From NCBI RefSeq assembly GCF_016595525.1, contig NZ_JAENII010000009.1:62001-126000 (forward strand): a DNA stretch of 64,000 bases, read 5' to 3'. The stretch comes from Haloferula rosea (GTDB lineage: Bacteria; Verrucomicrobiota; Verrucomicrobiia; Verrucomicrobiales; Akkermansiaceae). Shown one piece after another: positions 1-18,688 of this stretch. Numbering within the stretch: position 1 is the first letter of the stretch; each line of letters opens with the position of its first letter. The notes below the pieces were generated by a model. The model ran no database searches, had not been told where the DNA came from, and worked only from the letters and a program-made list of their open reading frames with translations. The translations under genes and the position numbers were made by a program.

Positions 1-1
1 G

Positions 2-508
2 CTCTGCGGCCTCTCGGGCTCAGGCAAGTCCACCATCGCCAACGCCCTTGAGCACGTCCTTCATGACAAAGGGCGATTTGTCGTCCGCTTGGATGGCGAC
101 AACCTGAGGACCGGTCTCAACAACAATCTCGGCTTCAGCGACGAAGACCGGCTTGAGAACATCCGGCGCACCGCCGAACTTGCCAAAGTGCTGGCTGACA
201 ACGGGGTGATCGTGCTCTGCTCCTTGATCACGCCCCGCGGTCACCTCCGCGACCTCGCTCGCGGTATTCTCGAGGACGATTTCGCCGAGATCTACGTGAA
301 GGCCGACTACGCCACCTGCGAAGCGCGGGATCCGAAGGGGCTCTACGCCAAGGCCGCGGCCGGCGAGGTAAAGCAGTTTACCGGCAAGGACAGCAGCTTC
401 GAGGAACCCCAGGAACCCGACCTGATCCTCGATACCGAGAATCTAAGCGTCCAAGACTCGACCTTTGAAGTGCTGGAGTTCCTTCGGAACAAAGGGATTG
501 CGTCTTAA
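2..508 (+). CDS. cysC: Adenylyl-sulfate kinase CysC (5' truncated)
   Basis: APS kinase phosphorylates adenylyl sulfate to PAPS, the sulfuryl donor for sulfotransferases, in the cytoplasm. The reading frame is open from base 2, so the N-terminus (roughly 20-40 residues) lies outside the window. The P-loop GLSGSGKST is visible at the very start, followed by the substrate-binding LDGDNLR motif and a conserved core through the SLITP and YVKAD segments. It stands alone and is not fused to CysN. cysD begins 120 bases downstream and cysN follows, making a complete ATP sulfurylase/APS kinase set. Given the four sulfotransferases downstream, its product PAPS is probably used for polysaccharide sulfation, though a role in sulfate assimilation cannot be excluded. 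Confidence 0.95.
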   Translation, partial: LCGLSGSGKSTIANALEHVLHDKGRFVVRLDGDNLRTGLNNNLGFSDEDRLENIRRTAELAKVLADNGVIVLCSLITPRGHLRDLARGILEDDFAEIYVKADYATCEARDPKGLYAKAAAGEVKQFTGKDSSFEEPQEPDLILDTENLSVQDSTFEVLEFLRNKGIAS

Positions 509-628
509 CATTACCAAGTCACCCAATTAAGTAATTAATTCTTGCCAAAGTCGCGAGCAAGAGTGTTTCCTCCGCGCCGTCCGGCTTTCTGACAAGGGAA
601 AGCCAAAGTTCTGCAACCACGGTTTCCC

Positions 629-1534
629 ATGCCCAACTACCAACTTTCCCACCTCGACCAGCTTGAAGCTGAGGCGATCTTCATCCTGCGTGAAACGGCC
701 GCCCAGTTCCAGAATCCAGGACTTCTCTTCTCCGCGGGTAAGGACTCCATCGTGATGGCGTGGCTCGCAAGGAAGGCGTTCCATCCTTCCAAGCTTCCTT
801 TCCCGTTGGTCCACGTCGATACCGGGCACAACTTCCCGGAGACCATCGAGTATCGCGACGAGTTTGCCGAAAAGATGGGTGCCCGGCTCGTGATCGGATC
901 GGTCCAGAAGTCCATCGATGACGGCAGGGTTGTAGAAGAAACCGGAGCCGATGCCTCACGCAACCGCCTCCAGACGACGACACTCCTCGACACCATCGAG
1001 GAACACAAGTTCGACGCCGTGCTCGGCGGAGGCCGGCGCGATGAAGAAAAGGCCCGGGCCAAAGAGCGCTTCTTCTCCCATCGCGACGACTTCGGTCAGT
1101 GGGATCCGAAGAACCAACGCCCCGAACTTTGGAACCTCTTCAACGGCCGCATGCAACCCGGCGAAAATTTCCGCGTCTTCCCACTGTCCAACTTCACTGA
1201 GATGGACATCTGGATGTACATGAAGCGTGAGGGCATCGTTCTTCCCAGTCTCTACTACGCCCACGAGCGCGACACCATCGTTCGGAACAACACCATCCTG
1301 GCGGTCAGTGAGTTCGTCCAACCCCGCGAAGGCGAAGAAGTGGTGAACCGGAGGATCCGCTTCCGTACCATGGGCGATGCCACCATCACCGGCGCCGTCG
1401 AATCCGACGCCGATACCATGGACAAGATCATCGAGGAAGTCGCCGCCGCCCGCCAGACCGAACGTGGCAATCGTGCCGATGACAAACGTTCGGAAACCTC
1501 CATGGAGGACCGTAAGAAAGAAGGTTATTTCTGA
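629..1534 (+). CDS. cysD: Sulfate adenylyltransferase subunit 2 (CysD)
   Basis: This is the catalytic ATP-sulfurylase subunit, which makes APS from ATP and sulfate with CysN. The protein has 301 residues, the normal CysD length. The PP-loop motif SAGKDS is at residues 35-40, followed by HVDTGHNFPE and the LGGGRRDEEKARAKER segment typical of the PAPS reductase/CysD superfamily. The C-terminal MEDRKKEGYF tail is highly characteristic of CysD. It sits between cysC and cysN in the same orientation. The ATG start follows a 120-base spacer that holds the AT-rich stretch TAATTAATT and no other gene. Confidence 0.97.
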   Translation: MPNYQLSHLDQLEAEAIFILRETAAQFQNPGLLFSAGKDSIVMAWLARKAFHPSKLPFPLVHVDTGHNFPETIEYRDEFAEKMGARLVIGSVQKSIDDGRVVEETGADASRNRLQTTTLLDTIEEHKFDAVLGGGRRDEEKARAKERFFSHRDDFGQWDPKNQRPELWNLFNGRMQPGENFRVFPLSNFTEMDIWMYMKREGIVLPSLYYAHERDTIVRNNTILAVSEFVQPREGEEVVNRRIRFRTMGDATITGAVESDADTMDKIIEEVAAARQTERGNRADDKRSETSMEDRKKEGYF

Positions 1535-1620
1535 AGCCAGCCTCCGCCCTTCATCCACCAACTCAGGCACTTTCCACTTTTCACTTCACACTTGGCACTC
1601 CCGCTCAGCGGGCAATCACC

Positions 1621-2865
1621 ATGGACCTTCTTCGTTTCACAACCGCCGGTTCCGTCGACGACGGCAAATCCACCCTCATTGGCCGCCTTCTCTATGATTC
1701 CAAATCGATCTTCGAGGATCAGATGGAAGCCGTGGAAGAGAGCTCACGCCGTCGCGGTGACGAGAACGTCAACCTTGCCCTTCTGACCGACGGTCTCAAG
1801 GCTGAGCGCGAGCAGGGCATCACCATCGATGTCGCCTACCGCTACTTCGCGACACCCAAGCGCAAGTTCATCATCGCCGATACACCGGGGCACATCCAGT
1901 ACACCCGCAACATGGTGACCGGCGCCTCCACCGCCAACCTCGCCATTATCCTCGTCGATGCGCGCAAGGGCGTGATCGAGCAGACCAAGCGACACAGCTT
2001 CATTGCCAACCTGCTGCGCATCCAGCACGTCGTGGTGGCCGTCAACAAGATGGACCTCGTCGATTATTCGCAGGAGGTCTATGACAAGATCGTCAGCGAC
2101 TACCAGGAGTTCGCATCCCGACTGGACAACATCGTAGACATCACCCCGATTCCGATTTCAGCGCTGAATGGCGACAACGTCGTCGACAAATCCGAAGCGA
2201 TGCCATGGTTCCAGGGTTCGTCCCTCCTTTACCATCTCGAGAACGTCTATGTCGGGGGAGAAGAGAACCATGTTGATGCCCGCTTCCCGGTCCAGTGGGT
2301 GATTCGCCCACAGAGTGATGAGTGGCATGACTTCCGCGGATTCGCAGGTCGGGTCGCCGGTGGAGTCTTCAAGCCAGGCGATGAAGTCACCGCGCTACCG
2401 TCAGGTTTCAGATCGACCATCAAGGAGATCCACACTGCCGAAGGCAGCCTCGACGAGGCCTTTGCCCCCCAGAGCGTGACCATCACCCTGAACGACGAGA
2501 TCGATATCTCGCGGGGTGACATGATCGTCAAAGCGAACAATCCCCCCGAGGTGGGCCAAGACCTGGAAGCAATGATCTGCTGGTTTTCGAACAAGCCGAT
2601 GGGTCACCGCGCCAAGCTCATCCTTCGTCAAACCACCCGCGAAATGCAGGCGGTGGTGAAAGAGGTGAAATACCACGTCGACATCAACACCCTGCACAAA
2701 GTGGAAGGGATCGATGGTTTCGCGATGAATGACATCGGTCGCATCACCCTGCGCACCGCCAGCCCCGTCATCCACGACCGCTACCGCCGCAACCGTCACA
2801 CCGGTTCCTTCATCCTCATCGACCCCGGCACGAACGAAACCGTGGCGGCGGGGATGATTGTCTGA
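1621..2865 (+). CDS. cysN: Sulfate adenylyltransferase subunit 1 (CysN GTPase)
   Basis: CysN is the regulatory GTPase subunit of ATP sulfurylase, coupling GTP hydrolysis to APS synthesis by CysD. GTPase motifs are clear: G1 GSVDDGKST at residues 10-18, G3 DTPGH at 87-91 and G4 NKMD at 142-145, followed by two EF-Tu-like beta-barrel domains. At 414 residues it is shorter than the enterobacterial protein (about 475) and lacks the C-terminal CysC domain of NodQ/CysNC fusions, which fits with the separate cysC upstream. It starts 86 bases after cysD on the same strand. The gene ends the sulfate-activation module; a 161-base gap follows. Confidence 0.96.
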   Translation: MDLLRFTTAGSVDDGKSTLIGRLLYDSKSIFEDQMEAVEESSRRRGDENVNLALLTDGLKAEREQGITIDVAYRYFATPKRKFIIADTPGHIQYTRNMVTGASTANLAIILVDARKGVIEQTKRHSFIANLLRIQHVVVAVNKMDLVDYSQEVYDKIVSDYQEFASRLDNIVDITPIPISALNGDNVVDKSEAMPWFQGSSLLYHLENVYVGGEENHVDARFPVQWVIRPQSDEWHDFRGFAGRVAGGVFKPGDEVTALPSGFRSTIKEIHTAEGSLDEAFAPQSVTITLNDEIDISRGDMIVKANNPPEVGQDLEAMICWFSNKPMGHRAKLILRQTTREMQAVVKEVKYHVDINTLHKVEGIDGFAMNDIGRITLRTASPVIHDRYRRNRHTGSFILIDPGTNETVAAGMIV

Positions 2866-3026: not shown

Positions 3027-3983
3027 ATGAGGAACTCACTACTGATATCTCTGATGCTGATCCTCGCAGTGACTGCCTCCGATCTCGGTAAGTTGCAGGA
3101 CTCCTTCATGACCCGCTATGATGCGGTCAATCAGGAACGTGATGCCGCACTTGAGAAGCTGACGGCGAGCTACCTTGGTGCGTTGGAGCGGCACATGCAG
3201 AAGGTGAAGGCGGGTGGGGACCTTGAGCAGGTTTTGCCGGTTCGTGACGAGATCAACGCCGTCAAACAAGACGCGGCCGCGTTGCCAGAACTGCCGCATA
3301 GCGTGGGGCGCCAGCTGCGTTCGATGCGCACCAAATTCTCGGCCGCACGGGCCACCATCGTCCAGATCCACGCGAAGTCGCTGGTCGATCTTGCTGACAA
3401 AATGAACGCAGCCCTTGCCAAGGAGGAAAGCGAACTGACCAAAGACGGTAAGATCGACGAGGCCCTATCGGCCAAGCGGATGAGGGAGACTCTGTCGATG
3501 GACGCCGGAATTGCGGCGGCCAGATCGAGTCAGAAAGCGGAGAAGGCAGCGATGGGGCGCGTGGAGTGGATCAACCTCGTGGATGGACGGATCACACCCA
3601 TGGGACGTGCGACCTATCTCGGTCGGATCGGTGGCGAGGGCTACGAGAAATTGCATGAGAAAATGCGTGCTCGGTTCGAAGAGATTGATGACGGAGAAGG
3701 CCAGCTTTTCGTTGCCTTGGCACCAGTGGCTTTCGAGTTGAATTTTCCGCAACCCGTTTCCAAGTTGGAGGCCAAAGGTTTCGCGGCGAATCGGGGCGGG
3801 AGAGCCAAGTTCGAAGTCGAGGCACGCGGCGTCACCGTGGTTTCCAAAGAGGTGGACGCCGACGAGGACCCGACGGTCCGTCTGGATTGCGAATTCGAGC
3901 CGACGAAGCGTCTGCTGATTCGGGTCGATCGGATCGGTAAAACCGGTATCTGGACTGCACTGCTCGATGGTAGGGTGCGATGA
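3027..3983 (+). CDS. Secreted coiled-coil protein of unknown function
   Basis: This 318-residue protein has a hydrophobic N-terminus (residues 3-17) compatible with a signal peptide, then a long charged alpha-helical, coiled-coil-like region (about 20-175) with segments such as LEKLTASYLGALERH and GDLEQVLPVRDEINAV. The C-terminal part (about 180-318) is predicted to be beta-rich and ends in VDRIGKTGIWTALLDGRVR. A helical N-terminal half with a GDLE-type repeat is common in Verrucomicrobia and Planctomycetes exported proteins, but I know no function for it. It lies between the sulfate-activation genes and the first sulfotransferase, so a link to polysaccharide assembly is possible but unproven. 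Confidence 0.75.
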   Translation: MRNSLLISLMLILAVTASDLGKLQDSFMTRYDAVNQERDAALEKLTASYLGALERHMQKVKAGGDLEQVLPVRDEINAVKQDAAALPELPHSVGRQLRSMRTKFSAARATIVQIHAKSLVDLADKMNAALAKEESELTKDGKIDEALSAKRMRETLSMDAGIAAARSSQKAEKAAMGRVEWINLVDGRITPMGRATYLGRIGGEGYEKLHEKMRARFEEIDDGEGQLFVALAPVAFELNFPQPVSKLEAKGFAANRGGRAKFEVEARGVTVVSKEVDADEDPTVRLDCEFEPTKRLLIRVDRIGKTGIWTALLDGRVR

Positions 3984-4031: not shown

Positions 4032-4862
4032 GTGCCTGAGTCGCCGATCCGTAAGATGTCTGCTCTTGTCTTTCTGCATATACCGAAGACCGCAGGAACA
4101 ACTTTTCACAAAATCCTCACTCATCAATACCATCCAAGAGAGGTGGTCATTCGCCATGACTCGGAAGGCCCTCTCCCGAGTGACCTGATCGAGCGCATGA
4201 CCGGATCCAACGCCCAGGTGAAGTTGGTCCTGGGTCACCTGAGTGCCCGGTTTCATCAGGTGCTTCCGGACGTCCGTTACTTGGTGTGCCTACGCGATCC
4301 GGTTGGTCGAATCCGCTCTCACCACGAACACGCCAAGGCCGATGCGTCGCATTACCTGCACGAAGCGGCGCGGACTATGAGCCTCGGTGACTATGCTTTG
4401 TCCGGTCTCTCGGGTGAGCTGCGGAATGGAATGGTCCGAATGCTGGCAGGCGTGGAAGACTTCGATCAAGCCGAGGTGGATCACAGCACCTTGGCAACGG
4501 CGCTGGAGGTTCTCAGGACTCGGACTCACGGATGTGTGCTGACTTCTGACTTCGATGAAACACTCCTGTCGCTTTCCGGACGGATGGGTTGGAAGACACC
4601 GTGGTACATTCGGCGCAAGGTCGGACGTGGAGATCGGCAACCGCTCGATCCCGGTGTGCGGCAGGTGATTGAGGAAGTGAACCGTTTCGATACTGAACTC
4701 TATCGATGTGCCCTTGAGTCGTGGAGGGCTGAGCAAGGAACTCTCGGTCCGGGCTTTGGGAAAGAGGTCGACACCTTCAGGCGCAAGAATCGCACGCTTG
4801 GTCGTGCCGTCTTCCTCGCTCGGGAGGCTTGTCGACGAATTGGTGCTGACTTCCCGGCCTGA
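4032..4862 (+). CDS. Sulfotransferase family 2 (HIPKTAGTT type)
   Basis: This is a predicted PAPS-dependent carbohydrate sulfotransferase of 276 residues. The 5'-phosphosulfate-binding signature HIPKTAGTT is at residues 16-24, and the 3'-phosphate-binding segment CLRDPVGRIRSHH is at about 86-98, both diagnostic of the heparan sulfate 2-O/uronyl sulfotransferase clan. The GTG start gives the full length; an in-frame ATG at 4056 is an equally good start and loses eight residues that are not needed for the fold. It is the first gene of the polysaccharide locus, 1.2 kb after cysN, so PAPS supply and use are neighbours. The acceptor sugar cannot be predicted. Confidence 0.85.
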   Translation: MPESPIRKMSALVFLHIPKTAGTTFHKILTHQYHPREVVIRHDSEGPLPSDLIERMTGSNAQVKLVLGHLSARFHQVLPDVRYLVCLRDPVGRIRSHHEHAKADASHYLHEAARTMSLGDYALSGLSGELRNGMVRMLAGVEDFDQAEVDHSTLATALEVLRTRTHGCVLTSDFDETLLSLSGRMGWKTPWYIRRKVGRGDRQPLDPGVRQVIEEVNRFDTELYRCALESWRAEQGTLGPGFGKEVDTFRRKNRTLGRAVFLAREACRRIGADFPA

Positions 4863-4984: not shown

Positions 4985-6121
4985 ATGAAACTGGCCCTTC
5001 CTGCGCCCTATCCCGTCGGCAGCCTTGCCGCATTGGGCGGGTGCGAAGCACCCGGCCATCATGCCACGTGGTTGCCGCGGATCTCCCGGCTGCTGCAACG
5101 ACATTCCGACTTCGAGATCCACTGGCTCACCTGCAGCAAGGAAGTGAGCGAAATCCGGGTGATCGAGGAGAATGGGCAAACCTTTCACATTCTACCTCGT
5201 GGAAGTCTTGGAATTCAGATGCTGAGTCGGTTCCGGCACGAGAGACGAGAGTTGTTGGCCTGTTTGAAACGCATCCAGCCGGATCTCGTTCACGCTTGGG
5301 GGACCGAGGAAGGATATGGCCATTTGGCAGTCGATTGGCCGGGCAAATCCGTTCTTTCGATGCAGGGCATCCTTACCGAATGTTGTCGGGCCGTCGCTCA
5401 GCCATTGTTGATGCGGGTCCAGGCGAAAGGTGAGCGGCATGTTATGAGCCGGATCATGAACCTGACAGTGGAGTCGTCGTGGGGCCGGGAAAAACTGCAG
5501 CGTCTGGCGCCCCAAGCCTTGATTCAGAGGCTTGAATACGGCGTGGCATCGGAGTTCTTTGATCTACGAAGGCAGCCTGCATCGAATCCCCTCGTTTTGT
5601 TTGTTGGCACTCTGTCGAGGTTGAAAGGAGTCGACCTTCTGCTTGAGGTGTTCCGCGACCGACGGCTGCGCCACGTTGAATTGGTGCTACTCGGTGACGG
5701 TCCGCTCCGACGGATGGAATCCAAAATGTCCGCGAACGTTCGTTTTCTCGGACATCGTCCTCGTTCGGAGGTGTCCGATTGGATGCGGCGCACATGGTGC
5801 TTGGTGCATCCAACCCGGGCCGACACGGCACCAAACGTAGTGAAGGAGGCTCGGGTCGGGGGCATCCCTGTGATCACCACCCCTACGGGAGGGCAGACCG
5901 ACTATGTGGTGGACGGCCGCTCCGGATATCTTCTTCAGGCCGGGAATCGTGAGGGAATGATTGGAAAAATTCTCCAAATCACCAGCAGCCTTGAAGGCTC
6001 GCTGGCGATGGGGCGGACCGATCAGCAACGTTGCCGACGCATGCTCAACTTCGAAAGGATTTCCCGGAATCTTGGTGAGGTTTACGCGAACATCCTTCCC
6101 TCCGCGGCATCTGTCGACTAG
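4985..6121 (+). CDS. Glycosyltransferase family 4, paralogue A1
   Basis: This 378-residue protein has a GT-B fold of the GT4 type. The C-terminal donor-binding domain starts near VLFVGTLSRLKGVDLL and carries the GT4 loop HPTRADTAPNVVKEAR followed by GIPVITTPTGGQTDYVVDG. The N-terminal half contains APGHHATWLP, PDLVHAWGTE and TVESSWG. These same segments occur in the GT at 13815-14954, so the two are paralogues. It probably transfers a nucleotide-activated sugar to the lipid-linked repeat unit on the cytoplasmic membrane face. The 122 bases before the start contain no gene, and the ATG is the first codon compatible with the domain. Confidence 0.88.
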   Translation: MKLALPAPYPVGSLAALGGCEAPGHHATWLPRISRLLQRHSDFEIHWLTCSKEVSEIRVIEENGQTFHILPRGSLGIQMLSRFRHERRELLACLKRIQPDLVHAWGTEEGYGHLAVDWPGKSVLSMQGILTECCRAVAQPLLMRVQAKGERHVMSRIMNLTVESSWGREKLQRLAPQALIQRLEYGVASEFFDLRRQPASNPLVLFVGTLSRLKGVDLLLEVFRDRRLRHVELVLLGDGPLRRMESKMSANVRFLGHRPRSEVSDWMRRTWCLVHPTRADTAPNVVKEARVGGIPVITTPTGGQTDYVVDGRSGYLLQAGNREGMIGKILQITSSLEGSLAMGRTDQQRCRRMLNFERISRNLGEVYANILPSAASVD

Positions 6122-6205: not shown

Positions 6206-7807
6206 ATGGACTCCACCAAGATCCGCGTGTTCTTCGTCGTCTTTCTGGCGGCGTGCTTCGCCTTGTACCTCGGGGTTGCGGCGGCCACGGCGCAGACCGA
6301 GGCGATCGCTTGGATGGTCGGAGGACTGGCGGTGGTCTTCGTGCTCGCCCTCGGGAAACACGTGTGGCTGCTGATTCCCGCTGGGGTTTCACTCAACGGT
6401 GGATTGAACTTCCTGCCCGGATCGCCTGCCCCGTGGTGGATCGCGATGATGATTACCGGTGGAATATTCTTCCTCCGCCTCGCGACTCGGAGAACCGGGG
6501 AATTCACTTGGCGGTGGAGCATACTGGACCTCGTGATTTTCATTCACATCGTGGTTCTGGCGCAGGCCTACATGCGGAACCCGGCTGGTTTCTCCATCCT
6601 GGGCGGCGCCGGGGGCACGGTGGGAGGCAAACCCTACTTCACCCATGGTGCCGCCATTGTCTGCTACGTCCTTCTATCCATGGTGAAAACCGACATTCGC
6701 ATGTTCCGAACCGCCATGATCGTGATGATTGCTTGCGCCTGCTTCGATGGTTTCACTGTGTTGCTGGGGACCTTCGTGCCTGCGATTGCCGCCGTGGGGA
6801 TCCAGTTTTATTCGGGCTTTTCGTTCACTGCGGCGAACACGGGGGCAGGGGCGGACGTGGCCGAGGGCCGGACGACGGAAGGAAAAAATGCCGGTAGAAG
6901 CCTTGGGCGCGCCGTGTTGACGATCTGGCGACCGCTCAGTGTTCTGAATCCCTTCAACTTCCTTCCCTTCTCACTCTTCATGGTGGCGATGGCGGCGATC
7001 GCGATCAGCGGATACCGTTCTGCCATGGGCCTGTTGGCGGTCTATTTCATTGTGTGCTCCTTGATCCGGCGAAAGGTGGCGGATGTCGTGGTTTGTAGCG
7101 CCATCGCCGTTCTGGGAATCTGCATGCTGCTTTTCATCGGCACGGAACGGCTTCCGAACTCATTCAACCGGATTCTGTCGGTCATCCCAATTCCCGGCTT
7201 AGTCGACGAGAAAATCAAGCAAGGGGCCGAGAAGAGTACTGACTGGCGGGTGGAGATGTGGATGCTGGCGCTGACCACCGACCGCTACATTTTCAACAAA
7301 TGGCTGGGAGACGGCTTTGGCATCCGGAAGGACGAAATGGATGCCATGATTGATTCCGCTTATGGCGATAACCGACGAGCATTCGGTCTCGATATGCAAG
7401 AAGTCCTGATGAGGCGAGGCAGCTACCACGGCTTCCACGTCCAGACCATCCGTTCCTCTGGCTACATCGGCCTGTTTCTCGCCCTCGTGGTTCTTGGGGT
7501 GTTTTTCCGACATGCATGGAAACACATCCAGTTCTTCCGGGGACGACCGGAATGGGGCTTCGTGTTGTATGCCTGTGTCCCCTTCCTGATCTATCCATTC
7601 TATGCGATGCTGGTCTTCGGTGACTATCGTTTCGAGTTTCCCCGCTACATCATCGCAGCTGGCTTCCTCAAGATGCTCTGGAACATCAGGGCCCAGGAGG
7701 CCCTTCTGCCGAGTGCCACTCAGCCTTCCGCTGAGGATGAGTCGGGCACAGTAAGGAGGGCAGGCCCTGGCAACCGCCTGCCTGCTCCGGCCATGAGCAG
7801 ACGCTGA
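6206..7807 (+). CDS. Polytopic membrane protein, O-antigen polymerase/ligase-like
   Basis: This 533-residue protein has about 10-12 predicted membrane segments and a large hydrophilic loop in the C-terminal half (about residues 340-425, containing WLGDGFGIR and RRGSYHGFH). That architecture, with a short periplasmic loop motif ending in a conserved H and a following TM segment, is typical of Wzy/WaaL-type polymerases and ligases. The last 40 residues are polar and low-complexity. It precedes the flippase gene by 87 bases, which matches a Wzx/Wzy pathway. Assignment as polymerase rather than ligase is inference; a second candidate lies at 42289-44232. Confidence 0.7.
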   Translation: MDSTKIRVFFVVFLAACFALYLGVAAATAQTEAIAWMVGGLAVVFVLALGKHVWLLIPAGVSLNGGLNFLPGSPAPWWIAMMITGGIFFLRLATRRTGEFTWRWSILDLVIFIHIVVLAQAYMRNPAGFSILGGAGGTVGGKPYFTHGAAIVCYVLLSMVKTDIRMFRTAMIVMIACACFDGFTVLLGTFVPAIAAVGIQFYSGFSFTAANTGAGADVAEGRTTEGKNAGRSLGRAVLTIWRPLSVLNPFNFLPFSLFMVAMAAIAISGYRSAMGLLAVYFIVCSLIRRKVADVVVCSAIAVLGICMLLFIGTERLPNSFNRILSVIPIPGLVDEKIKQGAEKSTDWRVEMWMLALTTDRYIFNKWLGDGFGIRKDEMDAMIDSAYGDNRRAFGLDMQEVLMRRGSYHGFHVQTIRSSGYIGLFLALVVLGVFFRHAWKHIQFFRGRPEWGFVLYACVPFLIYPFYAMLVFGDYRFEFPRYIIAAGFLKMLWNIRAQEALLPSATQPSAEDESGTVRRAGPGNRLPAPAMSRR

Positions 7808-10755: not shown

Positions 10756-10789
10756 ATTCCCTACGAGTCCGGTTACAGTCAGTCGCGCC

Positions 10790-11767
10790 ATGAAATCGTT
10801 CATCAAGTCAGTTCGGGCGAGATTGCGCTATTATCACGAGTGCTATCAGGATGCGAAGCGGTTCATCGTTTCGATTTCTCCAAAGAAACTCGGGCCCGAG
10901 TTGGCCGTGGCCCGGATCGAAAGCGATATCGTCCGCCAATACCACGTGATCGAGAAGGGGCTTTGCATGCCGGACTTCCGTCCGGGATTTGGACAGGATG
11001 TCGTCCGTGGCCTCGTGCGTTCGCTGCAATCGCTTGAACAGCATCCCTTCGCCGGAGTCTGTGTTGGCGGTCAGATCGAGGCTGCTCGTGCGACCCTGCG
11101 CGAGTATGACGACCGTCATAGGAGCATCGGCTTCGATGTCTCGGAAATCCTCCGGGATGAGGATCGGCATATGTGGGCGAATGCACCTGAGCGGGAGGGT
11201 GGGATCCGTCCGTTCGAGCCATGCCAGCGCGTCGATGCCGGCGCCTTCGAGCGGGTGGTCCGCGGACGCGCCAGTGTCAGAGATTTCGATCCCGAGCGTA
11301 TTCCCTCCCAAGACAAGATTCTGAGCTGCATCGAGCTTGCTCTGCGCGCGCCGTCGGTCTGCAATCGTCAGACGGCCAGAGTGCATGTGTTTGCAGGGCA
11401 TTCGGCGCAGAAGGTGCTGTCTCACCAGTCGGGCAACCGCGGCTTCGGCCACAAGGTGCCGATGGTTCTCGTGGTTACTTCGGATCTCCGCTACTTCACG
11501 GGAACGGTTGAGCGGTATCAGGGCTGGATTGACGGCGGCATGTTCTCGATGCTGCTGCTCCTGGCGCTTCAGGCAGCAGGGTTGGGAGCGGTCGCACTGA
11601 ACTGGTCGGTCCGGAATGAAACGGATCGGTCGCTTCGGGTGGACGCCGATTTGCCCGAGCATGAGAGGGTGATCATGCTCATCGGATGTGGTTATCCCAA
11701 GGAGGGCTGTCGGGTGCCCGTCTCCGCGAGACGGGCGGCTTCGGACGTCACCACGTGGAACCTGTGA
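10790..11767 (+). CDS. Nitroreductase-fold protein of the polysaccharide locus
   Basis: The C-terminal half of this 325-residue protein (about residues 145-325) is a nitroreductase/FMN-oxidoreductase domain: RGRASVRDFD, then RAPSVCNRQTARVHVF (FMN-contacting), and GGMFSMLLLLALQAAGLGAVALNW. The first 140 residues resemble no domain I recognise and may be a specific substrate or partner module. It lies directly before the pyruvyl transferase gene, with a 13-base gap. Members of this superfamily in surface-polysaccharide loci have been linked to redox modification, but the substrate here is unknown. The open frame extends upstream to 10682 inside the previous gene; ATG 10790 follows that gene's stop and is preferred. 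Confidence 0.8.
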   Translation: MKSFIKSVRARLRYYHECYQDAKRFIVSISPKKLGPELAVARIESDIVRQYHVIEKGLCMPDFRPGFGQDVVRGLVRSLQSLEQHPFAGVCVGGQIEAARATLREYDDRHRSIGFDVSEILRDEDRHMWANAPEREGGIRPFEPCQRVDAGAFERVVRGRASVRDFDPERIPSQDKILSCIELALRAPSVCNRQTARVHVFAGHSAQKVLSHQSGNRGFGHKVPMVLVVTSDLRYFTGTVERYQGWIDGGMFSMLLLLALQAAGLGAVALNWSVRNETDRSLRVDADLPEHERVIMLIGCGYPKEGCRVPVSARRAASDVTTWNL

Positions 11768-11780
11768 GAGAACTGGACGG

Positions 11781-12848
11781 ATGAGGAGAATTGGCATTCT
11801 GACTTTTCATAGGGGACCGAACTATGGTGGCTTTCTTCAGGCGTTTCACCTGAGGGAAATGATCCGCGAGCTTGGGCACGAAGCGGAAATCATCAACTAC
11901 CAGAACCGCACCCATCACCGTTGGGAAAATCCGTTTTCGTCGATGCGCTTGACCCCGAAGGGGATCCGAACCGCATTTCGGAGGAGGAGCAAGGCGCGGC
12001 CATTCCGCGAGGTGGTTGCCGGCCTGACATCGGCGGAGTTCACCACTCGACCTGAGGCGGTCGACTGGAAGGCCTTCGACTCCGTGGTGGTGGGTAGTGA
12101 CGTGGTGTGGGATTACTCATCGCCCCAGTATGGTGCGGACCCCTGCTTCTTCGGACAGCACCCAGTGCAGGATGGCGTCCGGTTCGTCAGCTATGCCGCG
12201 AGTTGCGGGCCGGCAGATACCGGAAAAGTGCCGACCTACGTCCGCGAGGGCATCCAGCGATTCGAGGCGATTGGTGTTAGGGACCGGAAGACGCTGGAGA
12301 TCGCCCGGGGATGTGGGGGAGGAACTCCCGTTCTGGTGGCTGATCCCACCTGGCTCCGGGGCGACCCCCGGATCGAATGGCCCGATGCCCCGTCGGAACC
12401 CTATGTCCTCGTGTATGGCAACGCCCTGACCTCGAGAGATGACAATGAGGCGGTTCATCGCTGGGCCCGAGACAACGGCCTGAAGCTCGTGTCGGCGGCC
12501 AGCCCGGCGCTTCTCGTCGACCAACGCTATGATCGGCTCACCCCATTTCAATGGGTTGACCTCTACCGCAATGCATCCGCGGTGGTCACTGCGACGCTTC
12601 ACGGACTGCTCTATGCGGTGAAGTTCCGGAAGCCGTTTGTCATGAAACTGCTGCCTCAAACCCGCGACAAGGCGATCACGACATTGGAAGGCCTGGACTG
12701 CATGGACCGGTTGTTTCCCCAAGGGGAGAGCGTGAGGGATCTTGACCTTGATCTGGCGCTCGGTTCTTCGCTCCAGAACGCGTCGGTGGTGTCCTCCCCC
12801 TTCTCCGAGGAGTCACGGCAGTTCCTCCAGGCTTCGATTGCACCCTAA
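11781..12848 (+). CDS. Polysaccharide pyruvyl transferase family protein
   Basis: This 355-residue protein belongs to the CsaB/WcaK-type pyruvyl transferase family, which uses phosphoenolpyruvate to ketal-link pyruvate to sugars. Visible features are the N-terminal GILTFHRGPNYGGFLQAFHL, the DSVVVGSDVVWDY segment (family GSDQvW-like), AIGVRDRKT, and the C-terminal TATLHGLLYAVKFRKPFV, where the family keeps an S/T-xRfH-like region. A pyruvate ketal would add negative charge to the polymer, alongside sulfate. The start at ATG 11781 follows the nitroreductase stop by 13 bases; an in-frame upstream extension lies inside that gene and is rejected. Confidence 0.88.
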   Translation: MRRIGILTFHRGPNYGGFLQAFHLREMIRELGHEAEIINYQNRTHHRWENPFSSMRLTPKGIRTAFRRRSKARPFREVVAGLTSAEFTTRPEAVDWKAFDSVVVGSDVVWDYSSPQYGADPCFFGQHPVQDGVRFVSYAASCGPADTGKVPTYVREGIQRFEAIGVRDRKTLEIARGCGGGTPVLVADPTWLRGDPRIEWPDAPSEPYVLVYGNALTSRDDNEAVHRWARDNGLKLVSAASPALLVDQRYDRLTPFQWVDLYRNASAVVTATLHGLLYAVKFRKPFVMKLLPQTRDKAITTLEGLDCMDRLFPQGESVRDLDLDLALGSSLQNASVVSSPFSEESRQFLQASIAP

Positions 12849-12857
12849 TTGCCAAAT

Positions 12858-13772
12858 ATGCCTGACTTCATCATCATCGGTGCCGCCAAATCCGGGACGA
12901 CATCCTTGGCCCAGTACCTTGGTCAGCACTCCGAGGTCTGCATATCAAAGCTGAAGGAGGCCAGGTATCTCGCTTATCCTGAGGGCCCTCCCGACTACCG
13001 TGGCTACGGACCAAGAGGGGACGAGATCATGCGGATTTACCGTGAGACCATGCCTCGTAGTATGGCGGAGTATGAAGCGCTTTTCGATCAAGCGCTGCCA
13101 TCACAGCTGACTGGCGAGGCGAGTCCAGCCTACTTGTATCTTGAGGGAACGGCCGCCAGAATTTCCGAACTGTATCCAGACACCAAGGTGATCGCGATCC
13201 TCAGGAATCCGGTGGAGCGTGCCTATTCCAGCTATCTTCATATGCGGCGGGAGGATGCCGAGGACGTCTCGTTCAGGGAGGCGCTGAACCTTGAACCGAG
13301 CCGGATTGCAGAAGGGGCAGGGCTCCCGTACCACTATGCTTCGATGGGATTCTACGCACGTCAGCTGGCTCCCTATTTCGAAGCATTTGATTCCTCCCGG
13401 ATTGCCGTCTTCTTTTACGAGGATTTTGCCAGCAGGACGGCTGAGGTTCTCGCCGCGATCTGCAGGTTTCTTGATATCGATGACTCGGCGGCATTCGATT
13501 CAAGTGAGAGACGCAATGTTTCAGGAATTCCCGTGAATCGAAGTGCCTTCAATGCCTTCAATCGCCTCAAAGGCTCACTTCTGCCCAAGAGCTTCAAGCG
13601 GATCCTACCCGGCTCTCTTCGGTCCGGACTCAACAAAGCAGCGTCCAAGCGCCTCCTACGTAAGCCGTCGATTGGCGAAGAGGAGGCGAACCGCCTTTGT
13701 GAGCTGTACCGGAAAGAAAAGCAGGAACTTGCGGATCTCCTGGGAGTGAACCCACCCTGGCGAATCGATTGA
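12858..13772 (+). CDS. Sulfotransferase domain protein (PF00685-like)
   Basis: This 304-residue protein is a PAPS-dependent sulfotransferase. The 5'-phosphosulfate loop GAAKSGTTSL is at residues 8-17 and the 3'-phosphate-binding AILRNPVERAYSSYLHMR spans about 113-130, as in N-deacetylase/sulfotransferase-like bacterial enzymes. The region GEASPAYLY at about 86-94 is also typical. ATG 12858 is preferred over a TTG nine bases upstream because the fold begins at once with MPDFIIIGAAKSG. It follows the pyruvyl transferase by 9 bases and is the second of four sulfotransferases in the locus. Confidence 0.92.
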   Translation: MPDFIIIGAAKSGTTSLAQYLGQHSEVCISKLKEARYLAYPEGPPDYRGYGPRGDEIMRIYRETMPRSMAEYEALFDQALPSQLTGEASPAYLYLEGTAARISELYPDTKVIAILRNPVERAYSSYLHMRREDAEDVSFREALNLEPSRIAEGAGLPYHYASMGFYARQLAPYFEAFDSSRIAVFFYEDFASRTAEVLAAICRFLDIDDSAAFDSSERRNVSGIPVNRSAFNAFNRLKGSLLPKSFKRILPGSLRSGLNKAASKRLLRKPSIGEEEANRLCELYRKEKQELADLLGVNPPWRID

Positions 13773-13814: not shown

Positions 13815-14954
13815 ATGAAAGTAGCAATCTTTGCGGACATCGCGGTCGACGCGTTGGCCGGACAGGCATCGGGTCGCGGGGGCGGTCATGCCGCCACTTG
13901 GCTTCCCCAGTTGGCCGACCGCTTCGAAGCTCTCGAGCACCCTTTCGAGATTACCTGGATTCGAACGAAGGCCCGTCGAGGTTCGGACGAGGACGTGAGA
14001 ATCGGCAGGCAGCGCTTCATCACGCTCGCCGGATTCAATGCGAGGATTGATTTCCTCATGGCGAACCTCTGGGCCGCCAAGCGATTTCGTCGGGTGATCG
14101 CCGAACTTGAGCCAGACCTTGTCCATGCCTGGGGCACGGAGAAGCCATTCGGGGTGGTCCCGGGCATCTTCGAGGGGCCTTCACTTCTCTCGGTTCAAGG
14201 TTGTCTCACCGCCTTCTCCAAGGTGGCGAAACTACCACTGCATTTGCGGGTCGCTTCACGACTGGAGCCCTTGCGAGTTCGATCCGCCACCAGGATCACT
14301 TGCGAATCATCATGGAGCGCCGAGCAGGTGGTGAAGTTGGGTGTGAAGACCATGCCCGACGTGGTGGATTATGGGGCTCATCCCAAGTTCCTCGAAGCCG
14401 AGTGGACTCCTGATCCGGAGAAACCGGTCTTGCTCTTCTCGGGGGGGCTCGAACGGCGAAAAGGATTTGATCTGCTCATCGATGCCTTGCAGCTCATTCC
14501 TGATCGGAAGTGGGAGCTTCGGGTCCTTGGTGACGGGCCCCTTCGGGCCGAAGGAGAAGCAGCCGGACTACCCGGTATCACTTGGCTCGGAACGTTGCCT
14601 TGGAGCCGAACGATTCCTGAGATGAAAAAGGCATGGGGTCTGGTGGTCCCGACACGTGCGGACACCGGGCCAACGGTCGTCAAGGAAGCCCGTGTGATGG
14701 GTCTCCCGGTCATTGCCAGCAATCATGGAGGACTTCGTGACTACATTCTCGATGGGGTCAACGGCCTCAAGGTTGACCCGCTCGATGCGCCCCAGCTTGC
14801 TTCGGCGATGACACGGTTGATGGGCGATTTCGAACAGGTCCAACGGCTCGGCATGAGCAGGCTTCAGAAGGACCGGGAGCGTTTCGATCCAACTCTGACG
14901 GCCCGTTCCTTCCTTCGCATCTATGGCGAAATGCTTGCGCCCTCAGCCACGTGA
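13815..14954 (+). CDS. Glycosyltransferase family 4, paralogue A2
   Basis: This 379-residue GT4 protein has GGGHAATWLPQL and PDLVHAWGTEKPFG in the acceptor domain, VLLFSGGLERRKGFDLL at the start of the donor domain, and PTRADTGPTVVKEARVMGLPV as the GT4 phosphate/ribose-binding region. Its motifs align throughout with those of the GT at 4985-6121, so the pair probably arose by duplication and may add similar sugars or act on alternative acceptors. It is separated from the preceding sulfotransferase by 42 bases. It ends just before the low-GC island that begins near 14955. Confidence 0.9.
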   Translation: MKVAIFADIAVDALAGQASGRGGGHAATWLPQLADRFEALEHPFEITWIRTKARRGSDEDVRIGRQRFITLAGFNARIDFLMANLWAAKRFRRVIAELEPDLVHAWGTEKPFGVVPGIFEGPSLLSVQGCLTAFSKVAKLPLHLRVASRLEPLRVRSATRITCESSWSAEQVVKLGVKTMPDVVDYGAHPKFLEAEWTPDPEKPVLLFSGGLERRKGFDLLIDALQLIPDRKWELRVLGDGPLRAEGEAAGLPGITWLGTLPWSRTIPEMKKAWGLVVPTRADTGPTVVKEARVMGLPVIASNHGGLRDYILDGVNGLKVDPLDAPQLASAMTRLMGDFEQVQRLGMSRLQKDRERFDPTLTARSFLRIYGEMLAPSAT

Positions 14955-14998
14955 ATCGGCTGAACCGGAGTGCGCTCATCGGAGCCGATGCCTCATGA

Positions 14999-15313
14999 AA
15001 ATGGAGCACAAGACGCGATTTGAGGCATTTTTGTGGGCGCTTCTTAAGATTTTCAGGAGTTATCAGTTACAGCCTATATTTGCTCCATCAGCCGATCATA
15101 AGCCTATCTCATCAGCTCTTGTCCAAGATTGATTTTTATAAGCATTTTCCACCACTCATTAAGTATTTTTCTCGATTTACTTGTTCCTTATCCGAAGCGC
15201 TTCCGGTGTCGGTTGTGTTTTACCATCTGGTGGAAATGTGGAGTATCAGGTATGGGAAATCTCTTTGGAGCAAATGGTTCGAAAAGCCGCTTTCAACCAG
15301 TAGTCGTGGATAA
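14999..15313 (+). pseudogene. Remnant of an acyltransferase-3 (OafA-like) gene, C-terminal part
   Basis: The frame from 14999 to the stop at 15311-15313 encodes RFSGVISYSLYLLHQPIIS followed by FYHLVEMWSIRYGKSL. The first matches the conserved ISYSLYLLHQP membrane segment of acyltransferase-3 proteins, the second their terminal F-x-x-E-x-P-x-x-x-x-G-K motif with degenerate positions. These family proteins are normally about 350-650 residues with ten membrane segments; only the last two are recognisable here. A TGA at 14996-14998 closes the frame upstream and there is no room for the rest of the gene. I therefore call it a decayed fragment. The surrounding 500 bases are AT-rich and otherwise non-coding. 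A very short expressed peptide cannot be excluded. Confidence 0.6.
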
Positions 15314-15471
15314 AGGTCAGTGTTTATCCCGATCTTGGCATTTGTCGCTCTGTCAATATATCAGCAGGTCTTGATAATGTTTTGGTTTATAGCGGAAAAC
15401 TACAATCTCTTTGTCAAGGTAAGAACTAACAACGAAGAAGAAACTAACCACAAATCCCTCCAATTATCCAA

Positions 15472-16092
15472 ATGAATACTGTGTTAAAACGCTCATTGCT
15501 AAAGATCCCTTTCGCTCCATCTGTTGCAGCGGTATTGGGGCTAGGAGGGGCTCGGTTGCGTGCACTTTCAGACCTTCCCAAAAGAGGCGTTGGTGCGGAA
15601 ATAGGGGTCCACATCGGTGATTTCAGCGACGCAATATTGTCAGTTGCAAAGCCCAAAAAGCTTCACCTTATCGATCCTTGGAAGTGTTTCGAATCTGAGG
15701 AGTATGGGTCATCGTGGTATGGTAATCGAGTCGACCAGAATACGATGGACGAACGATACTCTGAAGTCTGTGAGCGTTTCAAAGATGGTATCACCAAAGG
15801 GCGCTTAGAAGTTCATAGAAATGAGTCGAGGATTGCTCTCGGAGAGCTTGAAAACAACAGCCTGGATTTTGTCTATATTGACGGCGATCATACGTATGAA
15901 GGAGTCAAGGGGGATCTCGAACTCTCGCTGGAAAAAGTGAAGGTTGGAGGGGTAATCACTGGCGATGACTATGGCCCTGGTAGTTGGTGGGAAGGAGGAG
16001 TAAAGCGTGCTGTCGATGAGTTCGGTTGGAATGAATCTGTGAAACTTTTATGGATAGAAGGAACTCAGTTTTTCTTCCGCAAATGCAAGTGA
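15472..16092 (+). CDS. Class I SAM-dependent methyltransferase (Methyltransf_24-like)
   Basis: This 206-residue Rossmann methyltransferase has GVGAEIGVHIGDFSDAIL (SAM motif I region, about residues 39-56), LHLIDPWKCF, SLDFVYIDGDHTYEGVKGDLE (about 133-153) and GGVITGDDYGP. The YIDGDHTY element is typical of the Methyltransf_24 group, which modifies sugars or is attached to glycan loci. The gene is visibly more AT-rich than its neighbours and follows the decayed acyltransferase fragment, suggesting both came in together by horizontal transfer. Its acceptor is unknown; O-methylation of a sugar is the simplest guess. Confidence 0.85.
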   Translation: MNTVLKRSLLKIPFAPSVAAVLGLGGARLRALSDLPKRGVGAEIGVHIGDFSDAILSVAKPKKLHLIDPWKCFESEEYGSSWYGNRVDQNTMDERYSEVCERFKDGITKGRLEVHRNESRIALGELENNSLDFVYIDGDHTYEGVKGDLELSLEKVKVGGVITGDDYGPGSWWEGGVKRAVDEFGWNESVKLLWIEGTQFFFRKCK

Positions 16093-16133
16093 TGCAACGT
16101 AACCGAGCCCTTTTCTCTGGGGCGTAAGTGCCT

Positions 16134-16892
16134 ATGGATTTCTCTAGTTTGATGCGTATGGACAAATTAAGACTGCTTGCTGAGGCGGTGAGTAAGTCAT
16201 GGGAGCGGCGTGCACCAAGGCCCTTCATTTGCGAGTCCCTCAAACTTCTTTATTATGTAGTTCCGAAGGCTGCTTCATCAACAGTACGACGTTACCTGAT
16301 TGAACATGGCTACCCAGAGCGGCGGCCGAGTCAACTAACTCACGATCATGTACAACATTTTCAGTTCCCCCGAGTTACGCAGAGGGAAGCGCGCGATCTG
16401 GTTGAGTCGGGCTACCGAACGTTTACGGTGGTCCGCAATCCGTACGAGCGGATCGTTTCCTGCTATCGTGATAAGATCGTTGGAGCGGGTTCGGCTCCTG
16501 GTCCGAGTGCCGGCTTTCTGCGCTACAACAGTCTAACTGGGAGGCCAATGTTCCGCAACGACATGACGCTTCTTGAGTTTCTGCAGATTATCAGCCGACT
16601 TCCCGATTTCGCATCGGATGCGCATTTCAGATGCCAACGGACGTTCGTGCCAGTGGAGCAGGGAGAAGTGAGACTCGACCGCATCATCCAACTGGAGCGC
16701 TTTTCCGAGGCATTTCCTGAGTTTCTTGTGTGGGCAGGGCTCCCTGAGTGGCAGGCGAATCGCGAGAATCCGACCAAACGGAGTTCTGGGCTTCTCGCGG
16801 AGAACCCGGGTGCGGTAGAATTGATCCGGGAGCGATATGCGAGCTGTTTCAGGCTTTTCGGCTACGACTTGGAGGAGGTCCCCGATGTGTAA
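16134..16892 (+). CDS. Carbohydrate sulfotransferase (PF03567-like)
   Basis: This 252-residue protein resembles animal HNK-1/chondroitin-type carbohydrate sulfotransferases. VPKAASST at residues 43-50 is the 5'-phosphosulfate site, and VVRNPYERIVSCYRDK at about 99-114 is the 3'-phosphate site. The region around HFRCQRTFVPVEQG matches the conserved C-rich segment after it. The GTG two codons upstream is a possible alternative start, but ATG 16134 is preferred. It is the third sulfotransferase in the locus and overlaps the following glycosyltransferase gene by 8 bases, so the two are probably translated in a coupled way. Confidence 0.9.
   Translation: MDFSSLMRMDKLRLLAEAVSKSWERRAPRPFICESLKLLYYVVPKAASSTVRRYLIEHGYPERRPSQLTHDHVQHFQFPRVTQREARDLVESGYRTFTVVRNPYERIVSCYRDKIVGAGSAPGPSAGFLRYNSLTGRPMFRNDMTLLEFLQIISRLPDFASDAHFRCQRTFVPVEQGEVRLDRIIQLERFSEAFPEFLVWAGLPEWQANRENPTKRSSGLLAENPGAVELIRERYASCFRLFGYDLEEVPDV
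16871..16879 (+). promoter_or_regulatory. Strong Shine-Dalgarno site for the gene at 16885
   Basis: GGAGGAGGT lies inside the 3' end of the sulfotransferase gene, 5 bases before ATG 16885. It is the clearest ribosome-binding site in the locus and fixes the start of the next gene over the upstream in-frame codons. Confidence 0.7.
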
Positions 16893-17814
16893 TCTTCCGG
16901 GATTCGGCATGAAAGCCAAAGCAGTCACCCTCGTTCATCGTGGTGCCATGGAGATCGCCGTACATGCGGTCTCCTCGTTTGCCCGTCACTTTCGTGAATC
17001 CCATGTTCTTGAGATCCACTCCGATGGTAGTCTGCGCGGTGAGGATGAGAGACTGCTTCTCGAGGCTGCCGAAGAAATGGAGGTCCAGCTCATGGGTCCC
17101 GACGACCGGAAGGAAGCTCTGATGTCAGCTTGTTCGGGATATCCGGAGCTCATTCCGCTCTTTGATCGTGGCGGCTACTTTTCGAAGCTTCAACTCGCGG
17201 TGGCGATTCCACCGCCCTTCTTCTATTTCGACTCGGACATCGTGTGGCTCAGGCCAGTCGAGAACCTGGTTTCTGAATCAGCTCCGAACACCTTCTCCAC
17301 CGAATCCTGGTCATGGTATTTCGGGGTTAACGATGACGCCAAATGGGTTCGTGAGAAGATTCCGAGGCGGGTGAACTCCGGCTTCTACCATCTGTCTGTC
17401 AACTTTCCAATGGATCGGTTGGCGAGGCTCTTCAGCGAAGAACTCTACACCCCGGACCATCGATATAGCACGGATCAGGAGATGATGGCGTTTCTCTATC
17501 CGGATTTGGATTATTATCATCCGGATGATCTCAAACGAAGCCGGAGGGGCATCGTCTATGATCTTCAGGCCGACCCCGCCGCGGCACTCCATTTCCCTGG
17601 GCGAATGTGGGCGGATCATATGGACCAGATTCGTGAACTGGCGAACACCGCCGGACGTGAAGCGGTTCGAATTCGGTATCAGCCGGGCATCCCGCTCGGG
17701 CGTGGTGAATTGTGGAGAATGAGGGCCAGCCTAGCGGCTGCGGCAACGCCCGCTCTGCAGATACCGATCAACTGTTTCCGTAGGGTCCGCTCACGGCTTC
17801 GATCTTCCACCTAG
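16885..17814 (+). CDS. Putative GT-A fold glycosyltransferase with DxD motif
   Basis: This 309-residue protein has the features of a nucleotide-diphospho-sugar transferase: FFYFDSDIVWLRPVENL (about residues 112-128) contains a DSD metal-binding motif, followed by RRVNSGFYHLS and STDQEMMAFLYP. These are seen in GT8/GT32-like and related eukaryote-like transferases. The N-terminal part VTLVHRGAMEIAVHAVSSFARHF would bind the nucleotide. No precise family can be named. It is translationally coupled to the sulfotransferase upstream, and the next sulfotransferase starts 4 bases after it, so it is sandwiched between two sulfotransferase genes and may make their acceptor. Confidence 0.72.
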   Translation: MCNLPGFGMKAKAVTLVHRGAMEIAVHAVSSFARHFRESHVLEIHSDGSLRGEDERLLLEAAEEMEVQLMGPDDRKEALMSACSGYPELIPLFDRGGYFSKLQLAVAIPPPFFYFDSDIVWLRPVENLVSESAPNTFSTESWSWYFGVNDDAKWVREKIPRRVNSGFYHLSVNFPMDRLARLFSEELYTPDHRYSTDQEMMAFLYPDLDYYHPDDLKRSRRGIVYDLQADPAAALHFPGRMWADHMDQIRELANTAGREAVRIRYQPGIPLGRGELWRMRASLAAAATPALQIPINCFRRVRSRLRSST

Positions 17815-17818
17815 GCAG

Positions 17819-18688
17819 ATGCAGCACGCTTTCGTTATTTCCGAACCTCGTAGCGGGAGCACTGTCCTCACCGCCATGTTGGATCGCCGTAAGGGCGTAC
17901 TCAGCATGCCTGAATCTTCTTTCCCCCAAGTGCTCGGATACCTGAAGAAACACGAAAGAACGGATCCTCGCCGGTTGGCCGCCATCTATCTTGGCAGCAC
18001 TTTTGTGCCAACTCCGCTGAAGTTCTCCGAGATCGAGTCCTGCATGACGGGGAATGATCGGGATGTCCTCAATCAACTGGCGGAGGCGACGGCTGGTGCC
18101 GTCGGGCGCGATCCGCGACAGTTGAACTGTGTGATCTGGAAGACGGTCCGTACTATTGGGATGCATCAGGTCCTTGAGGATCTGGATGCGAAAGTAGTGA
18201 TTCTGCGGCGTCACCCCCACAATGTCTTCGAATCACAAAGTCGATTCAGTTATGGCGTCCGGAATCGGAAACCCTTTCGCTACGCCATCTTTCGACAGAG
18301 TTACGAGGCGGCATTTACAAGGCTCGCCGTGTCGGAGCGGCTTGAGATCGAATATGATGATCTGCCGGAGGCACTTTCGGATATCTGCGGATTCCTTGAG
18401 GTTCCCGATTTGGGGATCTGGCCTGACGATTCGAGTCACTTTGCTGAGGTTGCTGGGAACTGCAATTGGCTGAGCGAGGTCACCCGCGAGTTCCAGAACC
18501 GCGACCTTGAGAAGCGGGCTCGACTCGATGACTCTGCTTGTCGAACCCTTGATCACTGCCTTTCGATCACCCGTCCCCTGCGATTTGCGATCCATCCGCT
18601 GCGCCGCTTCTTCGATCGACGTTCATTGGGGCACGTGAGGCAGATTGCTGATCGAACCCTGAAAAAGGAAACTGCGCCTGAAGAGTAG
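17819..18688 (+). CDS. Sulfotransferase family protein
   Basis: This 289-residue protein has SEPRSGSTVLTAML at residues 8-21, the 5'-phosphosulfate-binding loop of the P-x-R-S-G-[ST]-[ST] type, and VVILRRHPHNVFESQSRF at about 126-143 as the 3'-phosphate-binding region. EIEYDDLPEALSDICGFLEVP matches the typical C-terminal sulfotransferase helix. It is the fourth sulfotransferase in the locus and differs from the other three in its loop sequence, so the enzymes are not recent copies of one another. It starts 4 bases after the preceding glycosyltransferase. Confidence 0.85.
   Translation: MQHAFVISEPRSGSTVLTAMLDRRKGVLSMPESSFPQVLGYLKKHERTDPRRLAAIYLGSTFVPTPLKFSEIESCMTGNDRDVLNQLAEATAGAVGRDPRQLNCVIWKTVRTIGMHQVLEDLDAKVVILRRHPHNVFESQSRFSYGVRNRKPFRYAIFRQSYEAAFTRLAVSERLEIEYDDLPEALSDICGFLEVPDLGIWPDDSSHFAEVAGNCNWLSEVTREFQNRDLEKRARLDDSACRTLDHCLSITRPLRFAIHPLRRFFDRRSLGHVRQIADRTLKKETAPEE

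Follow-up and report, generated by a model that had tools for sequence, protein, structure and literature searches.

Why do the genes for sulfate activation lie within a polysaccharide locus in Haloferula rosea, and does their company there point to a sulfated polymer? The stretch that raises this question, referred to below as the window, covers 64,000 nucleotides of contig NZ_JAENII010000009.1 (positions 62,001-126,000; the contig is called C69 here, and positions given alone are those of the window). An initial annotation placed cysC, cysD and cysN beside a glycan locus with four sulfotransferases that use 3'-phosphoadenosine-5'-phosphosulfate (PAPS), here named ST1 to ST4. Profile matches, both PAPS motifs and the predicted fold of ST1 agree with that description. 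A sulfated polysaccharide, as proposed at the time, is the most likely product of the locus, and H. rosea probably makes a sulfated sugar coat. The reading favoured here, which we hold to be fairly probable, is that of a Wzx/Wzy-type locus for a surface polysaccharide or exopolysaccharide, with the genome's only adenosine-5'-phosphosulfate (APS) kinase and CysD in its precursor block and with exchangeable sulfotransferases that would sulfate the repeat.

The locus is larger than noted earlier, extending over about 56 kb (approximately C69:53,035-108,765) from a MarR gene 8965 bases left of the window. Behind MarR, in the same direction, come an RfaH/NusG-like antiterminator and then the sugar-nucleotide genes, which encode an epimerase/dehydratase, UDP-galactopyranose mutase, a UDP-glucose/GDP-mannose dehydrogenase, a GDP-fucose synthase (469 bits, below its cut-off of 500) and a GDP-mannose 4,6-dehydratase (592 bits, above the cut-off of 415). 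A cytidylyltransferase-like gene and WecG come next in this head. WecG is followed by cysC, cysD, cysN, one uncharacterised gene, ST1, and the glycan assembly genes among which ST2-ST4 are found. From MarR to position 22,074, 30 genes are co-directional, and 28 of the 29 gaps between them measure at most 181 bases, the other being 517 bases long. The antiterminator scores 68.6 bits against the RfaH model, 53.8 against UpxY and 52.2 against NusG, all under the cut-offs of these models; a separate second NusG-like gene, 29% identical to this NusG paralogue, is located on contig C33. A Wzx/Wzy gene set is present, with a Polysacc_synt_3 flippase, two Wzy_C genes (one below cut-off) and a Bac_transf initiating transferase. 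The pyruvyl transferase, acylation genes (hexapeptide and MBOAT), methyltransferases and GT11 fucosyltransferase listed by the initial annotation are all found by family match. Given the GDP-fucose genes and GT11, fucose is a likely component of the predicted polymer.

CysC matches PF01583 with 188.7 bits over the part of the gene inside the window, and the NCBIfam model apsK with 216 bits over the full gene. Profile searches of the H. rosea genome (4.68 Mb, 97.5% complete) returned this single PF01583 match, and the PF01507 matches are CysD and one CysH, nothing more. A second activation set that could serve sulfation from elsewhere was not seen: cysC and cysD are each single genome-wide, in a search that did not cover single-subunit Sat-type sulfurylases. 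The three matches to the Inositol_P family (cysQ-type) all lie on contigs other than that of the locus. The cysH gene is on another contig too, between genes that resemble CysI (sulfite reductase) and CysK (cysteine synthase), these neighbours being named by reading only, without a family search. CysH carries the ECGLH motif and lacks the double cysteine, a combination that we take to be the sign of a PAPS reductase. The motifs do not support the alternative of an APS reductase, with which cysC would have been specific for sulfation. Since a CysH of the PAPS-reductase type needs the same PAPS, cysCDN, judged by these motifs, must also feed cysteine synthesis, and the idea that it is dedicated to sulfation had to be given up. 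The set would serve assimilation and, if the favoured reading is right, sulfation too.

This dependence of cysH on cysCDN speaks for the strongest rival explanation. According to it, cysCDN is an ordinary assimilatory set that landed beside the antiterminator/WecG block in an ancestor within the family and remained in that place; its position would be unrelated to sulfation, and the sulfotransferases would be later, independent arrivals. We consider this explanation unlikely, and the evidence bearing on it is taken up below as it arises.

Of the four sulfotransferases, ST2 matches Sulfotransfer_3 with 70.5 bits, ST3 Sulfotransfer_2 with 66.3 bits and ST4 Sulfotransfer_3 with 43.5 bits. ST1 is the weakest of the four by Pfam, scoring 21.6 bits against Sulfotransfer_2 (cut-off 22), and a search of the PDB with its sequence gave no significant match (best E 0.53). 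Three ST1 orthologues were scanned as well: two of them exceed the Sulfotransfer_2 cut-off (with 22.9 and 28.0 bits), and one exceeds that of Gal-3-O-sulfotransferase (with 36.4 bits). In an alignment of three ST1 sequences, the HIPKTAGTT loop and a downstream arginine and serine are common to all. An AlphaFold2 model of ST1, built from a three-row alignment and of middling confidence (pLDDT 69.6), was compared with the PDB. Eight entries matched at E<=0.001, every one of them a sulfotransferase; their TM-scores, normalised by query length, were 0.44-0.55, and heparan sulfate 6-O- and 2-O-sulfotransferases headed the list. By sequence, ST2 matches 3rnl (2.7e-51) as well as heparan sulfate 3-O- and N-sulfotransferases, and for ST4 the search gave the CurM sulfotransferase and an entry for a polyketide synthase, both of them weak matches.

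The loops quoted initially (HIPKTAGTT, GAAKSGTTSL, VPKAASST and SEPRSGSTVL in ST1 to ST4, respectively) were all recovered, and all four proteins carry an R-x7-S motif further downstream, presumably the 3'-phosphate site. Pairwise comparison shows similarity over short stretches only, at best 31% over 51 residues. They are therefore not recent copies, as had been stated from the loops, and duplication of one another was rejected as their origin. These four unrelated proteins are candidate enzymes of different specificity. Searches with PF00685, PF13469, PF03567 and the ST1 protein found five sulfotransferases in the genome, of which four fall within 14.7 kb, an arrangement with a probability of about 1.5e-7 under random placement and thus clustered beyond chance. 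The fifth (PF00685/PF13469) is located on another contig (C67:165890-166570).

Is the position of cysCDN conserved? The genus sample comprises 18 genomes, of which 17 have cysC (G129, 72% complete, is without a match). WecG, cysC and cysD occur in that order in 17 of these 17, neighbours being at most 1.6 kb apart, and cysN comes next in all 16 genomes in which the contig goes on. In 15 of the 17, the cysC contig also holds the antiterminator, the remaining two contigs stopping too soon upstream. A wider draw from the family covers 145 genomes, of which 112 have cysC (counted at a match better than 1e-9). Of these 112 genomes, 69 have the antiterminator no more than 20 kb from cysC, 80 have WecG at such a distance, and 87 have at least one of the two. 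Both cysC and the antiterminator are present in 103 genomes; besides the 69 linked cases, G052 has them on the same contig 573 kb apart, and 33 have them on different contigs, where assembly breaks are indistinguishable from true separation. Nine family genomes have cysC alone and nine the antiterminator alone.

The outgroup consists of 49 genomes from other families of the order, compared for the antiterminator only; 38 have cysC together with an antiterminator homologue (39-53% identical). In none of these 38 do the two lie within 20 kb. Four one-contig cases measure 24 kb, 243 kb, 533 kb and 1.2 Mb, and the other 34 pairs are on different contigs, with the same ambiguity about assembly breaks; in 29 of the 38, every cysC stands over 12 kb away from the start of its contig, the distance to the contig end not having been checked. 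The 24-kb case, G184, carries APS kinase in three copies, and the 24 kb separate one of these from the antiterminator homologue. With 69 of 103 in the family against 0 of 38 outside it, the linkage is most simply read as one that came about within the family, not as a chance neighbourhood. Of the 80 named cysD loci, 21 are too short upstream, and the other 59 have 6 kb or more of upstream sequence; the antiterminator and/or WecG is present there on the same strand in 51 of the 59; named loci and family draw share genomes and are not independent. The eight without either include two Pelagicoccus, strain DG1235 and one Chthoniobacterales genome. Across many genera, cysC, cysD and cysN have stayed in the co-directional precursor block despite the reshuffling of the rest, which argues against a purely assimilatory set whose position has no bearing on sulfation.

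Two side observations concern the same genes. Genus g3 of the same family, by inference Akkermansia-like, has neither a good cysC match nor a close antiterminator homologue, and most of its genomes listed retain WecG-family genes. In some relatives, short genes that by eye are toxin-antitoxin-like or four-helix-bundle-like (clusters 3, 8, 14 and 21) stand between cysC, cysD and cysN.

The sulfotransferases behave differently from this head. The ST1 protein has matches at E<=0.001 in 8 of the 145 family genomes, H. rosea included. Close copies exist in three congeners (44-50% identical); in each of them the copy sits immediately after cysCDN, and a Wzy-like gene that is 41-43% identical comes next. 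Wherever ST1 is close and full-length, in 4 of 4 genomes including H. rosea, the distance from the cysC match to its start is 3.3-4.1 kb, a constancy that a position unrelated to sulfation does not explain well. Homologues of ST4 (33-52% identity) occur in the same locus of four congeners, 25-35 kb behind cysC. Among the loci read, the best matches to ST2 and ST3 are 31% identical (G034, another genus) and 25% identical (G024), respectively. Two of the four sulfotransferases thus recur, in different congeners; ST1 and ST4 are found together only in H. rosea of the 19 loci read, and the full set in 0 of the 18 others. Overall, a sulfotransferase was detected behind cysCDN in 8 of 16 genus loci read, and Sulfotransfer_3 matches exist in all 18 genus genomes drawn. 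The conserved linkage is that of cysCDN with the antiterminator/sugar-nucleotide/WecG head, not with the sulfotransferases.

The search was widened in two ways. Custom sulfotransferase profiles added a candidate at L191:3916-4878 (G034), which has no Pfam match; their second addition, in G039, is weak (E 1.7e-4), and the genus counts stay unchanged. The unexplained frames of 87 loci were clustered for a recurrent, unrecognised PAPS-using gene near cysCDN, and none of the 25 largest clusters looked sulfotransferase-like; by eye, they include an aminotransferase-like family, short toxin-antitoxin-like or four-helix-bundle-like genes, sugar-nucleotide genes, and antisense frames.

If the favoured reading is right, the antiterminator would let polymerase read through the long unit, CysDN would make APS, and CysC would then convert it into PAPS, supplied jointly with the sugar donors. 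The PAPS would be split, one part going to CysH for cysteine and the other to ST1-ST4, which may sulfate different positions of a lipid-linked repeat containing fucose and uronate in the cytoplasm, before export by the flippase. The head is the part widely conserved in the family, and the sulfotransferases, which belong to the exchangeable middle, would set the sulfation pattern of each species. A bolder version is possible, although we hold it only tentatively: in this family the whole PAPS supply, and with it cysteine synthesis from sulfate, would be expressed within the polysaccharide programme via a dedicated antiterminator, with the polymer as a main PAPS sink and the swappable sulfotransferases as a species sulfation code.

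Several observations weigh against the reading of a sulfated Wzx/Wzy polymer. The other four ST1 matches (G033, G035, G064 and G079) are partial or 25-29% identical and not near cysC, that of G033 being 41% identical over 154 residues with in-frame stops, and the Wzy-like gene that follows ST1 occurs without a detected ST1 in G006 and G085. No sulfotransferase was detected behind cysCDN in G006, G048, G079, G093, G114 and G125, where at least 33 kb were read, nor in G085 (about 13 kb read) and G108 (about 21 kb read). Across the family, a sulfotransferase within 60 kb of cysC was counted by hand, among the matches listed, in at least 14 of 112 genomes. To these points are added the pairs on different contigs mentioned above. 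No chain-length (co-polymerase) or outer-membrane export gene was found among the scanned locus proteins, the whole genome not having been searched. Finally, terminator-like sites number 15 compared with 19.1 in shuffled sequence; there is no excess, and a single transcript is neither proven nor excluded.

Since half of the congeneric loci read are without a detected local sulfotransferase, the position of cysCDN alone does not imply local sulfation, and the assimilatory explanation gains by it. Such loci may have lost the enzyme or may use one encoded elsewhere, or position and sulfation may be unrelated. Published loci with the same combination of genes yield sulfated polymers, as described in the parts of two papers drawn on here, and this tells against that explanation (PMC11641403, PMC11766843). 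Base composition favours it: GC is 0.52-0.545 over 14-20 kb, the stretch of ST3, ST4 and methyltransferases, compared with 0.558-0.624 elsewhere in the window (2-kb steps), which is compatible with import and suggests a later arrival of these two sulfotransferases. The low-GC stretch (14955-20000) starts near the unit's only long gap. A last explanation, that the sulfotransferases have a target other than this polysaccharide, for instance some lipid, small glycolipid or protein glycan exported along with the exosortase system, could draw on the many substrates of Sulfotransfer_3 members and on the two PDB matches of ST4, but is improbable given the resemblance of ST1 and ST2 to heparan sulfate sulfotransferases and the interleaving of all four with glycosyltransferases.

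The features of the locus inside the window are collected in Table 1. The protein between ST3 and ST4 adjoins the ST4 homologue in G039 as well and contains YFDSDIVWL, by eye resembling a GT-A DXD motif. Many genes of the 3' part recur in congeners, and one gene there is on the minus strand (38392-39522). Beyond the exosortase, genes for ribosomal protein L25, peptidyl-tRNA hydrolase and SSB mark the border of the locus.

Table 1. Features of the H. rosea polysaccharide locus, in window coordinates.
Feature	Position	Strand	Basis or remark
cysC, APS kinase	1..508 (gene start 85 bases left of window)	+	PF01583, apsK
cysD, ATP sulfurylase subunit 2	629..1534	+	NCBIfam TIGR02039, above cut-off
cysN, ATP sulfurylase subunit 1 (GTPase)	1621..2865	+	NCBIfam TIGR02034, above cut-off
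Uncharacterised protein	3027..3983	+	no family; homologues in related loci G039, G085, G093, G120
ST1, sulfotransferase	4032..4862	+	Sulfotransfer_2 just under cut-off, orthologues, predicted fold
GT4 glycosyltransferase	4985..6121	+	family match
Wzy-like polymerase/ligase	6206..7807	+	PF04932 below cut-off
Wzx-like flippase	7895..9448	+	Polysacc_synt_3
GT4 glycosyltransferase	9511..10755	+	start picked by eye; open frame from 9295
Nitroreductase-family protein	10682..11767	+	family match
Polysaccharide pyruvyl transferase family	11781..12848	+	PF04230
ST2, sulfotransferase (Sulfotransfer_3/_1)	12858..13772	+	Sulfotransfer_3
GT4 glycosyltransferase	13815..14954	+	family match
Methyltransferase	15472..16092	+	family match
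ST3, sulfotransferase (Sulfotransfer_2), in lower-GC stretch	16128..16892	+	Sulfotransfer_2
Uncharacterised protein	16885..17814	+	no Pfam match (E<=0.1); recurs in three congeners with ST4 homologue
ST4, sulfotransferase (Sulfotransfer_3)	17819..18688	+	Sulfotransfer_3
Methyltransferase	18698..19333	+	family match
FkbM methyltransferase	19398..20111	+	family match
Hexapeptide acyltransferase	20116..20751	+	family match
Variable middle, continued: GT4, GT2 glycosyltransferases, FkbM methyltransferase, unassigned gene 27145-28206	20806..28206	+	
3' part: MBOAT acyltransferase, h29807, methyltransferases, YfhO-like, GT11, GT2s, GT4, Bac_transf, Wzy_C	28316..44232	+	
DUF3485 and exosortase, locus right end	44245..46765	-	

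Verrucomicrobiota are better known for degrading sulfated polymers. The favoured reading predicts that many free-living members of one family of this phylum are able to make sulfated surface polymers, and cultured relatives exist in which the prediction is testable, among them Haloferula sp. BvORR071, which carries both the head and ST1, and Haloferula luteola (G079), in which the head is present, no sulfotransferase was detected locally and Sulfotransfer_3 genes are found elsewhere. Sulfate activation, a central metabolic step, sits inside a polysaccharide locus in many genera, which raises the question of whether the surface coat controls sulfur assimilation.

How new is this arrangement? 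Among the open-access papers listed by the literature searches, judged by titles and abstract openings, none describes a linkage of cysCDN to polysaccharide genes in Akkermansiaceae. The kind of locus is known, since those of Vibrio sp. KMM 8419 and Cobetia already join cysNDC to sulfotransferases. The initial statement that sulfated bacterial exopolysaccharides are rarely matched to gene clusters is therefore less true now, loci having been published for these two and for Synechocystis (PMC11641403, PMC11766843, PMC8205485; these and the papers below are used here in part). The capsule locus of Vibrio sp. KMM 8419 combines cysN, cysD and cysC with three sulfotransferase genes, the sulfated structure was solved by NMR, and its authors call the combination of cys and sulfotransferase genes a hallmark (PMC11641403). 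The cys set of that strain is, however, a second copy, and export is of the Kps-type ABC kind, whereas H. rosea has a single cysC and cysD in a Wzx/Wzy-like, antiterminator-headed locus. According to the part of the paper used, the authors saw no similar locus in public genomes; by contrast, the head described here recurs widely in its family (PMC11641403). In Cobetia marina KMM 1449, PAPS genes and a sulfotransferase occur in the capsule locus, across strains of three Cobetia species, and the capsule is sulfated by NMR (PMC11766843). That locus has a bifunctional cysN/C, cysQ, a sulfate permease and ABC export, whereas cysC is separate in H. rosea and the Inositol_P genes are elsewhere.

Three other systems are comparable in part. 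The xss locus for synechan of Synechocystis is also of the Wzx/Wzy type, with sulfotransferases of distinct subfamilies and a polymer whose sulfate was measured; it has two sulfotransferases, and the part of the paper used names no PAPS genes in the cluster (PMC8205485). Within Verrucomicrobiota, Pontiella sulfatireligans has a glycosaminoglycan-like cluster with a sulfotransferase among GT2/GT4 genes, yfhO and gmd, and its sulfated exopolymer was measured. One sulfotransferase is named there, and in the text used cysDNC is mentioned as assimilation genes only (PMC7356697). In Vibrio vulnificus, expression of the PAPS operon cysDNC is tied to that of the brp exopolysaccharide, but the coupling is regulatory (c-di-GMP and BrpT) rather than one of a shared locus, and PAPS is proposed as a signal (PMC6113621). 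Compared with all of these, three points are new: the genome's sole APS kinase and CysD belong to a polysaccharide locus, they are paired with an antiterminator, and this placement recurs widely, across many genera of the family.

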